A stretch of DNA of 64,000 nucleotides from Bacteroidota bacterium (GTDB taxonomy: Bacteria; Bacteroidota; Bacteroidia; Chitinophagales; Chitinophagaceae). The DNA lies in the NCBI GenBank assembly GCA_947460175.1, contig CANHGW010000002.1, forward strand, positions 62,001 to 126,000, read 5' to 3'. The notes under the pieces are model-generated. The model did not search any database. It saw only the letters and a list, made by a program, of their open reading frames with translations, and was not told the origin of the DNA. The translations under genes were made by a program, and so were the position numbers. Below are positions 17,795-37,621 of this stretch, piece by piece; positions within the stretch are counted from its first letter, which is position 1; every line of letters begins with the position of its first letter.

Positions 17795-18430
17795 TTGGTT
17801 TTTTACCGCAAAGAACGAAGATGTTTTACCGCAGAGAGTTTCGAGAGGTTTTATCTCAGAGAAAACTGAGTTTTTTACCGAAAAGATCGCAGAGTTTTTA
17901 CTTCAGAGTGTTTAGAGTTATTTTACCACAGAGAGTGCAGAGTTTTTACCGCAGAGAGAACTGAGTTGTTTAACCACAGAGAATGTAGAGTTTTTATCGC
18001 AGAGAGAACTGAGTTGTTTAACCGCAGAGAGTGTAGAGTTTTTATCGCAGAGAGAACTGAGTTGTTTAACCGCAGAGAGTGTAGAGTTTTTACTGCAGAG
18101 AGAACTGAGTTGTTTAACCACAGAGAATGTAGAGTTTGAAGTTTTTATCGCAGAGAGAACTGAGTTGTTTAACCGCAGAGAATGTAGAGTTTTTATCGCA
18201 GAGAGAACTGAGTTATTTAACCGCAAAGAATGTAGAGTTTTTACTGCAGAGAGAACTGAGTTGTTTAACCGCAGAGAATGTAGAGTTTTTATCGCAGAGA
18301 GAACTGAGTTATTTAACCGCAAAGAAAGCAGAGGTTTTACCACAGAGAGTTCAGAGATTTTTTACTGCAAAGTGCAATGAGAGTTTACTGCAATAATCAC
18401 AGAGGTTTTACCGCATAGATCGCTGAGATT
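17795..18430. repeat. 48-bp CAGAG-rich tandem repeat array
   Basis: About 635 bases of imperfect direct repeats between the DUF3820 gene and the cyclophilin gene. The landmark gagaactgagtt recurs at 17956, 18004, 18052, 18100, 18155, 18203, 18251 and 18299: a strict 48-bp period with one 55-bp step caused by a 7-base insertion. Each unit has two half-units, tttttatcgcagaga-type and tttaaccgcagaga-type. More degenerate copies extend on both sides (17795-17950 and 18340-18430). Because 48 is a multiple of three and the unit lacks stops, long open frames appear on both strands; they are artefacts. The core resembles the 81-bp array at 35663-36220. Confidence 0.9.
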
Positions 18431-18456
18431 AAATACTCAATAAGAATTCGAAGAGA

Positions 18457-34168: not shown

Positions 34169-35662
34169 ATGGCAACGACTAAAAAAAATAATATTAAAAA
34201 ATCTACAACATCTGTTTCATCTGTTAAATCAGTGTTCCAAAATTATGCCCCTGCACCTGAAAGTATTGACCATATTCAATTAAAATCTCAATATGATTTG
34301 TTTATCAATGGAAAATTTGTCAAACCATTGAGTAATGAATATTATGATACTATAAATCCTGCCACAGGAAAAAAAATTGCATCTGTTGCAAAAGGAAATG
34401 AAAAAGATATTGATGCAGCTGTAAAAGCGGCCAATAAAGCATTTGAATCATGGAGTAAAACTGAGCCTAAAGAACGAGCAAAATATATTTATAGAATTGC
34501 CAGAATGATTCAAGAAAGAGCAAGAGAATTTGCTGTTATTGAAACCATGAATGGTGGTAAATCAATTCGTGAAAGTAGAGATATTGATGTGCCATTAGCT
34601 GCAAATCATTTTTTCTATTATGCAGGGTGGGCAGATAAATTGGAATATGCTTTTCCAAATAGAAATCCAAAACCAATAGGTGTTACAGGACAAATAATTC
34701 CTTGGAATTTCCCATTGTTAATGGCTGCTTGGAAATTAGCACCCGCATTAGCAACAGGAAATACTATAGTCTTAAAACCTGCTGAAAGCACACCATTAAC
34801 GGCTTTAAAGCTAGCAGAAATTATTCAAGAAAGTGGTTTGCCTGATGGAGTTGTAAATATTGTAACAGGATTTGGAGACTGTGGCTCTGCATTGGTAAAT
34901 CATCCACAAGTCAATAAAATAGCCTTTACAGGAAGTACGCCTGTAGGTAAATATATTCAAAAAGCTATAGCAGGAACAAACAAAAAAGCAACATTAGAAT
35001 TAGGAGGAAAAGCTGCTAATATTATTTTTGATGATGCACCAATAGATCAAGCTGTAGAAGGAATTGTCAATGGGATTTTCTTTAATCAAGGTCATGTTTG
35101 TTGTGCTGGTTCTCGACTTTTTATTCAAGAAAATATAGCAGAAAAAGTCATTAAGAAATTGAAAGATAGAATGAGGACGTTGATAGTAGGCGATCCTATG
35201 GATAAAAATACGGATATTGGTGCTATCAATAGTAAAGAACAATTAGAAAAAATAAATCATTATATCAAACTCGGTCAAAAAGAAGGTGCAGAAATATTTC
35301 AACCAGAATGTTCAGTTCCTGCAAATGGATTTTTCTGTAAACCAACCTTGTTTATAGGAACATCACAAAGCCATCGAATTGTGCAAGAAGAAATTTTTGG
35401 TCCTGTTTTGACGATACAAACGTTTAGAACAATAGAAGAAGTCATTGAAAAAGCAAACAATATTCCATATGGTTTAAGTGCAGGTGTTTGGACAGATAAA
35501 GGGAGCAAAATTTTCAACTTAACATCTAAATTAAGAGCAGGAGTTATTTGGGCAAATACCTACAATAAGTTTGACCCAACTTCACCATTTGGAGGCTATA
35601 AAGAAAGTGGATTTGGTAGAGAAGGAGGAGTGCATGGATTATTGCCTTATGTGAAATTTTAG
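34169..35662 (+). CDS. Aldehyde dehydrogenase, catalytic half of a split ALDH16-type enzyme
   Basis: 497-residue ALDH with complete active site: Asn180 (IIPWNFP), Glu277 (LELGGK) and Cys311 (FFNQGHVCCAGSRLF). Motifs typical of the ALDH16 family are YYAGWADKLE (150-159), GQIIPWNFPLLMAAWKLAPAL, RMRTLIVGDPMDKNTDIGAI and NTYNKFDPTSPFGGYKESG. In ALDH16 a catalytic domain of this size is fused to a C-terminal pseudo-ALDH domain of about 290 residues; here that second part is the separate gene at 36743. The first 25 residues are a basic, Ser/Thr/Asn-rich leader. The deoC context points to acetaldehyde oxidation, which is inferred. Confidence 0.88.
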   Translation: MATTKKNNIKKSTTSVSSVKSVFQNYAPAPESIDHIQLKSQYDLFINGKFVKPLSNEYYDTINPATGKKIASVAKGNEKDIDAAVKAANKAFESWSKTEPKERAKYIYRIARMIQERAREFAVIETMNGGKSIRESRDIDVPLAANHFFYYAGWADKLEYAFPNRNPKPIGVTGQIIPWNFPLLMAAWKLAPALATGNTIVLKPAESTPLTALKLAEIIQESGLPDGVVNIVTGFGDCGSALVNHPQVNKIAFTGSTPVGKYIQKAIAGTNKKATLELGGKAANIIFDDAPIDQAVEGIVNGIFFNQGHVCCAGSRLFIQENIAEKVIKKLKDRMRTLIVGDPMDKNTDIGAINSKEQLEKINHYIKLGQKEGAEIFQPECSVPANGFFCKPTLFIGTSQSHRIVQEEIFGPVLTIQTFRTIEEVIEKANNIPYGLSAGVWTDKGSKIFNLTSKLRAGVIWANTYNKFDPTSPFGGYKESGFGREGGVHGLLPYVKF

Positions 35663-36220
35663 TTTTGTTAACTACAGAGAGAATGGAGTTTTACACAAAG
35701 GAAACAGAGAAGAATTATAGAGTTAAATGAGAGAAATCAAAGATTTGATGAACCACAGAGAAAATGTAGTTTTACACAAAGGAAACAGAGAAGAATTATA
35801 GAGTTAAATAAGAGAAATTAAAGATTTGATGAACCACAGAGAAAATGTAGTTTTACACAAAGGAAACAGAGAAGAATTATAGAGTTAAATGAGAGAAATC
35901 AAAGATTTGATGAACCACAGAGAAAATGGAGTTTTACACAAAGGAAACAGAGAAGAATTATAGAGTTAAATGAGAGAAATCAAAGATTTGATGAACCACA
36001 GAGAGAATGGAGTTTTACACAAAGGAAACAAAGAAGAACTTTAGAGTTAAATGAGAGAAATCAAAGATTTGATGAACCATAGAGAAAATGTAGTTTTACA
36101 CAAAGGAAACAGAGAAGAATTATAGAGTTAAATAAGAGAAATCAAAGATTTGATGAACCACAGAGAAAATGGAGTTTTACACAAAGGAAACAGAGAAGAA
36201 TTATAGAGATAAATTAGAGG
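35663..36220. repeat. 81-bp CACAGAG tandem repeat array
   Basis: Seven direct repeats with an exact 81-bp period: the mark ttttacacaaag ends at 35700, 35781, 35862, 35943, 36024, 36105 and 36186. Each unit contains gaaccacagagaaaatg, then ttttacacaaaggaaacaga, then a purine-rich stretch. Units differ by only a few substitutions, so the array is young. The plus strand is strongly A+G-rich. It lies directly between the ALDH gene (stop 35662) and the GxxExxY gene (start 36251). Its core resembles the 48-bp array at 17795. There are no spacers, so it is not CRISPR. Confidence 0.93.
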
Positions 36221-36250
36221 TTAAGTTTGATGTAAAAAATAACAAACGAA

Positions 36251-36637
36251 ATGCAAGAAAATGAAATAACAGAATTGATAATTGGATGTGCAATAAAGGT
36301 ACATTCTGCACTTGGACCTGGATTATTGGAGTCTAGTTATGAAGCTTGTTTGTTTTATGAATTAAATAAATTAGGATTAAAAGTAGAAAGTCAAAAATCG
36401 TTACCTTTAATTTATGAAGAAATTAAATTAGAAGTTGGATATAAAATAGATTTGTTAGTAGAAGATAAAGTAATTGTAGAATTGAAAACTGTAGAAGATT
36501 TTAACGATGTACATATTTCTCAATTATTAACTTACTTAAAATTAAATAATAATAAAATTGGTCTGTTAATTAATTTTAATGTGCCACTATTGAAAAATGG
36601 AATTAAAAGACTAATTAATAAATATTATAAAATATGA
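36251..36637 (+). CDS. GxxExxY protein (PD-(D/E)XK nuclease-like)
   Basis: 128-residue protein with the naming motif GLLESSY (Gly24, Glu27, Tyr30) inside ALGPGLLESSYEACL. A PD-(D/E)XK-like core follows: Asp67 in GYKIDLLVEDK, then Glu77-Leu-Lys79 (IVELKTV), then a helix HISQLLTYLKL with Gln91 and Tyr95. This arrangement of Glu, Asp, E-x-K and Q suggests a metal-dependent nuclease fold, though activity is unproven for the family. The gene stands between direct CACAGAG repeats upstream and an inverted copy downstream, inside the ALDH16 locus, and looks like a gene that travels with the repeats. Confidence 0.9.
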   Translation: MQENEITELIIGCAIKVHSALGPGLLESSYEACLFYELNKLGLKVESQKSLPLIYEEIKLEVGYKIDLLVEDKVIVELKTVEDFNDVHISQLLTYLKLNNNKIGLLINFNVPLLKNGIKRLINKYYKI

Positions 36638-36693
36638 ACTATGGCTCAACTGACTCTCAAAACCTCTTTAAATAAAAAATAAATCCTCCGATA

Positions 36694-36726
36694 CCTCTGT
36701 GTGAAATCTCAGCTATCTCTGTGGTA
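36694..36726 (-). repeat. Inverted copy of the CACAGAG repeat downstream of the GxxExxY gene
   Basis: Read on the minus strand this 33-base stretch begins taccacagaga and ends ttcacacagagg, parallel to gaaccacagaga ... ttttacacaaagg in each unit of the upstream 81-bp array. The GxxExxY gene is therefore bracketed by the same repeat in opposite orientations. Confidence 0.65.
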
Positions 36727-36742
36727 AAAATAAATAAATACT

Positions 36743-37621
36743 ATGCAATTAGAAATTTTAAAAACATACAAACTATATATCGGAGGAGCTTTCCCTCGAA
36801 CTGAAAGCGGTCGATTTTATAAATTAGAAAATAATAAGAAAGAAGTCATAGCAAACATGTGCCTTTCATCTCGTAAAGATTTTAGAAATGCTGTAGTTGC
36901 TGCACGAAAAGCATTTGATGGTTGGAGTGGACGTGCCTCTTTTAATAGAGGTCAAATTTTATATCGTATAGCAGAAATGCTTGAAGGAAGAAAAGCACAA
37001 TTTGTTGAAGAATTAATATTGCAAGGTTCTACCAAAGCAAGTGCTGAAAAAGAAGTTCGACAAGCCATTGATAGATGTGTTTATTACAGTGGATGGTGCG
37101 ATAAATACCAACAATTATTTGGTTCTATTAATCCTGTAGCTAGTTCACATTTCAATTTTTCTGTGCCTGAGCCAACAGGTGTTGTAAGTGTAATTGCAGA
37201 TGAACATTCTTCATTGTTAGGATTGGTTTCTGTTATCATGCCTATTATTGCTGGAGGAAATACATGTGTTGTATTAGCATCTGAAACAAAACCTTTATGT
37301 AGTATAACCTTTTCAGAGGTGTTAGCTACATCTGATTTATCAGGAGGTGTAGTGAATATTCTAACAGGAAAAAGTAAAGAATTGTATACTCATTTTGCAT
37401 CACACATGGATGTAAATGCAGTCGTTTATTGCAGAGAGAATGCTGACGAAGCAAAAGCTATTGCAGAACTTTCATCCTTGAATGTAAAACGTAGTTTCTT
37501 TTGGCAAAGAGATTGGACAAAAGCCGAAAATGAAAATCCTTATATGATCATGGATTTACAAGAAATAAAAACGACATGGCATCCAATTGAAAATATTGGT
37601 GTGAGTGGAGCGAAGTATTAA
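36743..37621 (+). CDS. Pseudo-ALDH half of a split ALDH16-type enzyme
   Basis: 292-residue ALDH-fold protein without a catalytic Cys domain. It begins KTYKLYIGGAFPRTESGR, has SRKDFRNAVVAARKAFDGWSGRASFNRGQILYRIAEMLEGR, a Rossmann part PEPTGVVSVIADEHSSLLGLV...GGNTCVVLASETKPL, VVNILTG, and ends VKRSFFWQRDW...LQEIKTTWHPIE. This order and length match the C-terminal pseudo-ALDH domain of ALDH16, which pairs with the catalytic domain. It is therefore not a truncation artefact, though it stands as a separate gene about 1.1 kb from its partner. It probably serves a structural or dimerisation role. Confidence 0.8.
   Translation: MQLEILKTYKLYIGGAFPRTESGRFYKLENNKKEVIANMCLSSRKDFRNAVVAARKAFDGWSGRASFNRGQILYRIAEMLEGRKAQFVEELILQGSTKASAEKEVRQAIDRCVYYSGWCDKYQQLFGSINPVASSHFNFSVPEPTGVVSVIADEHSSLLGLVSVIMPIIAGGNTCVVLASETKPLCSITFSEVLATSDLSGGVVNILTGKSKELYTHFASHMDVNAVVYCRENADEAKAIAELSSLNVKRSFFWQRDWTKAENENPYMIMDLQEIKTTWHPIENIGVSGAKY

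Follow-up and report, generated by a model that had tools for sequence, protein, structure and literature searches.

In the window, i.e., the whole 64-kb stretch of DNA that was analysed, two ALDH genes are separated by a block that lies between the stop codon of the first and the start of the second (35663 to 36733, + strand) and is read here as a whole inserted GxxExxY element. The upstream gene encodes the catalytic ALDH (34169 to 35662, + strand, 497 aa), and its stop codon (35662) directly abuts the start of the block. The downstream gene is a short second ALDH-like gene (36743 to 37621, + strand, 292 aa). In the left arm of the block (35670 to 36219, + strand), an 81-bp unit made up of CACAGAG/CACAAAG/ACAGAG-like sub-repeats is repeated 6.8 times in tandem (TRF, 95% matches, with an exact spacing of 81 nt). 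It is followed by the GxxExxY gene (36251 to 36637, + strand), which encodes a protein of 128 aa matching TIGR04256 with 149.8 bits (cut-off 35) and PF13366 with 142.9 bits (cut-off 22). The right arm (36679 to 36733, - strand) carries the inverted CCTCTGTG / CTCTGTGGT, and inverted CTCTGTG units lie 3' of the gene at 36694-36701 and 36717-36725. The first-pass annotation had described seven 81-bp CACAGAG repeats, a GxxExxY gene, and an inverted repeat in this order, and the same layout was recovered. Aligned in inverted orientation, the arms match over about 56 nt (35663-35718 with 36679-36733) with a score of 19; among 500 dinucleotide shuffles, 2 scored as high. Taken alone, this single inverted match is significant, though its strength is modest.

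The whole window contains 24 C[AG]CAGAG/CTCTG[CT]G sites, confined to two places. Five forward and two reverse sites are located in the GxxExxY block, and 17 forward C[AG]CAGAG sites in a second, unidirectional CRCAGAG array (17800 to 18438, + strand). This array is composed of CCGCAGAGAG-type units of about 24/48 bp running in one direction, with convergent genes on either side. No GxxExxY or IVP gene was found there, and the array is a candidate for a gene-less relic or an arm expansion. Dispersed arrays are few in the window's own genome. The genome has a second GxxExxY gene (L191, G000:C1:230240-230590) upstream of a metH-like gene; a CACAAAG/CACAGAG array precedes it, and a degenerate inverted arm (CTTAGTG...TTTGTGGTG) lies downstream. 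As for the 81-bp array, a search of 41 genomes returned nothing elsewhere except two short weak matches. The idea of a dispersed 81-bp repeat was rejected on these grounds, and the expansion is local to the window copy. The 81-bp period proposed in the first-pass annotation is exact for this copy, but the general unit of the arms is 7 bp long and recurs every 8-10 bp.

The GxxExxY protein is predicted from profiles, alignment, and a structure model to be a RecB/Cas4-type PD-(D/E)XK nuclease with an intact active site. The residues G22, G24, Y30, D67, E77, K79, Q91, G104, N108, and F109 are invariant in 80 aligned sequences, and E27 and Y95 are nearly so. D67, E77xK79, and Q91xxxY95 make up what we take to be a match to the RecB/Cas4-type active site. 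The AlphaFold2 model has a pLDDT of 96.5. Foldseek placed the Cas4 protein SSO0001 and lambda-type exonucleases at the top ranks, with no E value below 0.001, and VIA-align gave Z scores of 9.8 for SSO0001, 8.4 for 3ijm, and 7.3 for Hjc. The PD-(D/E)XK-like core suspected from the sequence is in line with both the invariant D67, E77, and K79 and the nearest folds. No solved relative was found by sequence, and a PADLOC defence search returned weak Cas4-like and PDC matches only.

The comparison with related genomes shows that the block is an insertion and that this copy is absent from close relatives. In the relative G002, both ALDH matches fall within one open frame of 821 aa; therefore, the two window genes belong together, as had been supposed. 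In thirteen relatives, both ALDH matches share a contig and their spacing can be read (G001, G004, G005, G006, G009, G010, G011, G013, G017, G024, G041, G042, and G043). The start-to-start distance is about 1390-1545 nt in these genomes versus 2466 nt in the window, and the block is absent from all 13. Where the gap itself was sequenced, it measures 55-59 nt (G010, G009, and G001) compared with 1080 nt in the window. The earlier view of the block as a cassette separating the two genes agrees with these empty sites. The neighbourhood holds other repeats as well. G006 has a different GxxExxY copy with CACAGAT-type inverted arms, located one gene farther upstream in the deoC-ALDH interval (L015). 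The ALDH reading frame takes in one arm of this element, which is translated within a variable N-terminal stretch. The ALDH-ALDH gap of G017 contains a short repeat of another type and no gene.

Bracketing by inverted repeat arrays is a trait of the GxxExxY family. Of the loci considered, 79 were picked as close relatives of the window protein, and the rest came from a profile search of 61 genomes; the bracket counts quoted here are from oriented or same-contig analyses. C[AG]CAGAG was present within 300 nt upstream of 37 of 79 GxxExxY genes, compared with 5 of 246 control ORFs from the same contigs (p 2e-21). Downstream, 31 genes and 10 control ORFs had the inverted form, and both arms accompanied 24 genes compared with 2 control ORFs. 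A motif-free test, in which the 300-400 nt preceding each gene were compared with the reverse-complemented 300-400 nt that follow it, gave inverted arm scores of at least 20 for 82 of 177 GxxExxY genes versus 1.0% of mismatched pairs, a cut-off at which clear inverted arms are missing in about half of the genes. The arms are built from a unit of 7 bp, mostly spaced by 8-10 bp. The inverted-arm pattern is secure because it is family-wide, not because of the window locus alone. An ordinary tandem repeat lying by coincidence next to an unrelated gene would accord with the modest arm of the window copy (2 of 500 shuffles), but the family-wide controls contradict it, and it is hardly credible. The enrichment beside CACAGAG repeats, which the first-pass annotation had mentioned, was thus found; the bracket is real and broader than assumed at that time. 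As a genome-wide marker of the element, the 9-mer ACCACAGAG was discarded since it proved too noisy against a reversed control; a two-unit pattern was cleaner.

CACAGAG is just one among many repeat flavours. There are two main arm flavours. Flavour 1 consists of CRCNRAK units, commonly with an outer (TTA)ACC end, and flavour 2 has TTGTCTGAATCA-type ends and GATT-rich units (GTCTGAATCA..). The left and right arms of flavour 1 elements are of identical sub-type in 57 of 62 cases, compared with a mean of 22 and a maximum of 36 in 5000 shuffles. Proteins of the GFQ type go with flavour 2 in 27 of 31 cases, while those of the GLL/GLF type go with flavour 1 in 92 of 115 cases and with flavour 2 in 5. 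On the protein trees, the flavour labels cluster well below the shuffled expectation, with a contribution from near-copies. Flavour tracks protein clade. Two readings fit this: the protein may recognise its arms, or gene and arms may be inherited together as one unit.

Between co-directional genes, the GxxExxY gene has the orientation of its neighbours in 98 of 110 cases. This sense bias fits transcription read-through, an RNA-based spread, or selection against antisense copies. It raises the possibility of an RNA-level element comparable to the 23S rRNA IVS, in which the arms of the transcript pair, the gene sits in the loop, RNase III excises the structure, and the element spreads as RNA. 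The architecture is the same as that of the Coxiella IVS (PMC4990558). Moreover, the free-standing PF05635 (IVP) genes of the relatives (L142-L171) are bracketed too, with an inverted array at a score of at least 18 in 16 of 29 cases versus 2.8% of mismatched pairs. Nonetheless, the element has no reverse transcriptase, and a need for read-through transcription explains the sense bias equally well. The arm mismatches were also tested for selection at the RNA level: G-U and A-C mismatches on the sense strand numbered 215 and 192 (p 0.28). A selected RNA stem is not supported because this is no excess of G-U, and the RNA-level explanation is considered unlikely. A DNA rather than an RNA route is favoured, with low certainty. 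The PF05635 loci each have a flavour of their own (GTTGGAT, GTATTAAG, GGTGAATAG, and others).

Evidence of movement comes from copies at unrelated sites. The G009 copy between nadD and secA (L028) and the G006 copy flanked by a VanZ-like gene and gpsA (L212) are 84% identical in unrelated flanks, the gene names being a reading of the translated flanks. Their homology starts at TCTGAATCA and ends at TGATTC.GA. The nadD-secA pair of G006 lacks the element. Likewise, the homology between L186 and L189 of G013 ends at the arms, at different sites. For L186, which lies between hsdS and hsdR, no empty site could be identified since its flanks were not found among the relatives. Other repeats occur at the same places. 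The nadD-secA gap of G006 (L351) contains another tandem array (GGCTGTGCAGACAATGAAA-like) that is partly also present in G009; short arrays of several kinds seem to occur in intergenic gaps. G001 and G013 contain dozens of copies of a repeat about 90 bp long (L028:1186-1281) that is distinct from the GxxExxY arms and is possibly another REP-type element.

Gene-less copies have spread as well. G035 contains dispersed miniatures of the form AACCACAGAGRCACAGAG-core-CTCTGTGYCTCTGTGGTT, with unrelated cores of about 10-130 nt, and the orthologous place of one of them in G061 is without it. The L186 arm recurs gene-less many times in G001 and G013, sometimes in tandem. Hence, presence and absence at orthologous sites was seen for the ALDH-ALDH gap, the nadD-secA gap, and a G035 miniature. 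The bracketing repeats are part of the cassette, as the first-pass annotation had it, with the correction that gene-less arm copies spread too. Its suggestion of a target duplication fared differently, for none is visible at the window block and none was found in 13 G035 miniatures; the flanks of the empty sites (nadD-secA and G035/G061) are too diverged to read the junctions base by base. Most GxxExxY sites are common to the sister species G001 and G013, and movement is therefore not frequent on this time scale. Some copies there have stop codons. L181, L188, and L190 are copies with in-frame stops and look like a decayed copy duplicated along with its flanks. No fresh, near-identical copies were caught within one genome, the best non-allelic pair being the 84% pair from two species. 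Only 8 plasmid records encode a relative, so plasmids are not the principal route observed.

The gene-less arms outnumber the genes in G035, G001, and G013, and G030 bears arrays with no GxxExxY match. Both observations would suit a passive role of the gene, i.e., that RAYTs, IS elements, or host recombination spread the arms and GxxExxY is a passenger or a tamed gene. On the other hand, flavour goes with the GxxExxY clade. RAYTs are not a likely source of the arms because none of the 18 Y1 transposase genes of the relatives has these repeats and G061 has many arms without a Y1 transposase. The passenger role is accordingly given a rather small probability, below that of the RNA-level element. 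A third option is a homing-like or cruciform-resolving nuclease that cuts the arms and causes expansion and gene conversion at existing sites rather than true transposition. The closeness of the fold to Cas4 and Hjc, the strong tandem expansion of the window arm, and the homogenised flavour of both arms point in this direction. Nevertheless, insertion at new places is needed to explain why homology at unrelated sites is confined to the unit and why a relative is empty where a miniature lies, which makes this option improbable.

The GxxExxY gene and its matched inverted arms form a mobile unit, with miniatures and a conserved active site. That the nuclease recognises its own arms and drives the movement is what we infer from these features. 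The probable explanation, given with some reserve, is a compact mobile element that resembles REPIN-RAYT in its way of working but relies on an enzyme of a different class, and whose arms are recognised by the nuclease. The window block would be one copy of an element spread over Bacteroidota, Cyanobacteria, and other phyla. Each element would comprise one nuclease gene and two inverted arrays of a degenerate 7-bp unit repeated every 8-10 bp or so, which could fold into a hairpin or cruciform. It would move as one piece and insert in intergenic gaps, usually sense-oriented between operon genes. In some genomes, gene-less copies (arm, short variable core, arm) would spread beside it, as REPINs do beside RAYTs. 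The nuclease may bind and cut arms of its own flavour, probably when they are folded into a hairpin or cruciform. Such cuts could cause the element and its miniatures to move and their repeats to expand. A bolder generalisation is doubtful, although worth stating: a stand-alone RecB/Cas4-type nuclease, instead of a known transposase, recombinase, or reverse transcriptase, might mobilise inverted-array-bounded DNA and miniatures by their own flavour, and the unrelated IVP/Avd-like protein might do likewise with other flavours.

GxxExxY is an annotated but unexplained family, often with several copies per genome. The bracket suggests for it a likely biology (a selfish element) and a likely substrate (its own arms). 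In Bacteroidota and cyanobacteria, GxxExxY elements could account for many of the degenerate short repeats found between genes, and the bracket points to the IVP/four-helix-bundle genes as a parallel case. Should the nuclease be the mover, it would represent a class of mobile-element enzyme that differs from the known ones considered. A search of open-access papers found no description of a GxxExxY element, no mention of PDDEXK_3, and nothing relevant for the CACAGAG repeat. The name GxxExxY does occur there, at least once merely in passing.

Several known systems share features with the element. Cas4/RecB-type nucleases have the D...ExK active site and the QxxxY motif and are the nearest solved folds; in contrast, GxxExxY is shorter, lies outside a CRISPR or recombination operon here, and shows weak sequence similarity to them. 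The gene-less copies share terminal inverted repeats with the complete ones, as MITEs do with their parent IS, but a DDE or HUH transposase is absent, target-site duplications were not seen, and the miniature cores are unrelated. The 23S rRNA IVS is likewise a compact element whose terminal inverted arms enclose one small ORF. The Coxiella IVS, for instance, measures about 428 nt and has a 28-bp terminal stem with the ORF in the loop (PMC4990558), and IVS-type proteins (PF05635) resemble the DGR protein Avd (PMC10053308). However, IVP is an unrelated four-helix bundle while the GxxExxY protein belongs to PF13366, classical IVSs occupy rRNA helices whereas GxxExxY elements lie between protein genes (here ALDH-ALDH), and the GxxExxY arms show no RNA-level signature. 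The likeness to REP/REPIN-RAYT systems extends to their organisation. RAYTs are encoded by a small enzyme gene between two inverted repeat units, the repeat is also dispersed without the gene, and repeat type goes with enzyme lineage (PMC2817692, PMC3116915). The bracketed small enzyme gene, the gene-less doublets and clusters, and the pairing of flavour and lineage all recur in GxxExxY. Differences exist in the arms, which are degenerate 7-bp arrays as opposed to the single GC-rich palindrome with a GT(A/G)G head of REPs, and in the number of genes, GxxExxY having several copies per genome. Above all, GxxExxY is a predicted PD-(D/E)XK nuclease and RAYT a HUH/Y1 transposase; because the enzyme is of another class, the GxxExxY element is not a member of the REPIN-RAYT group.
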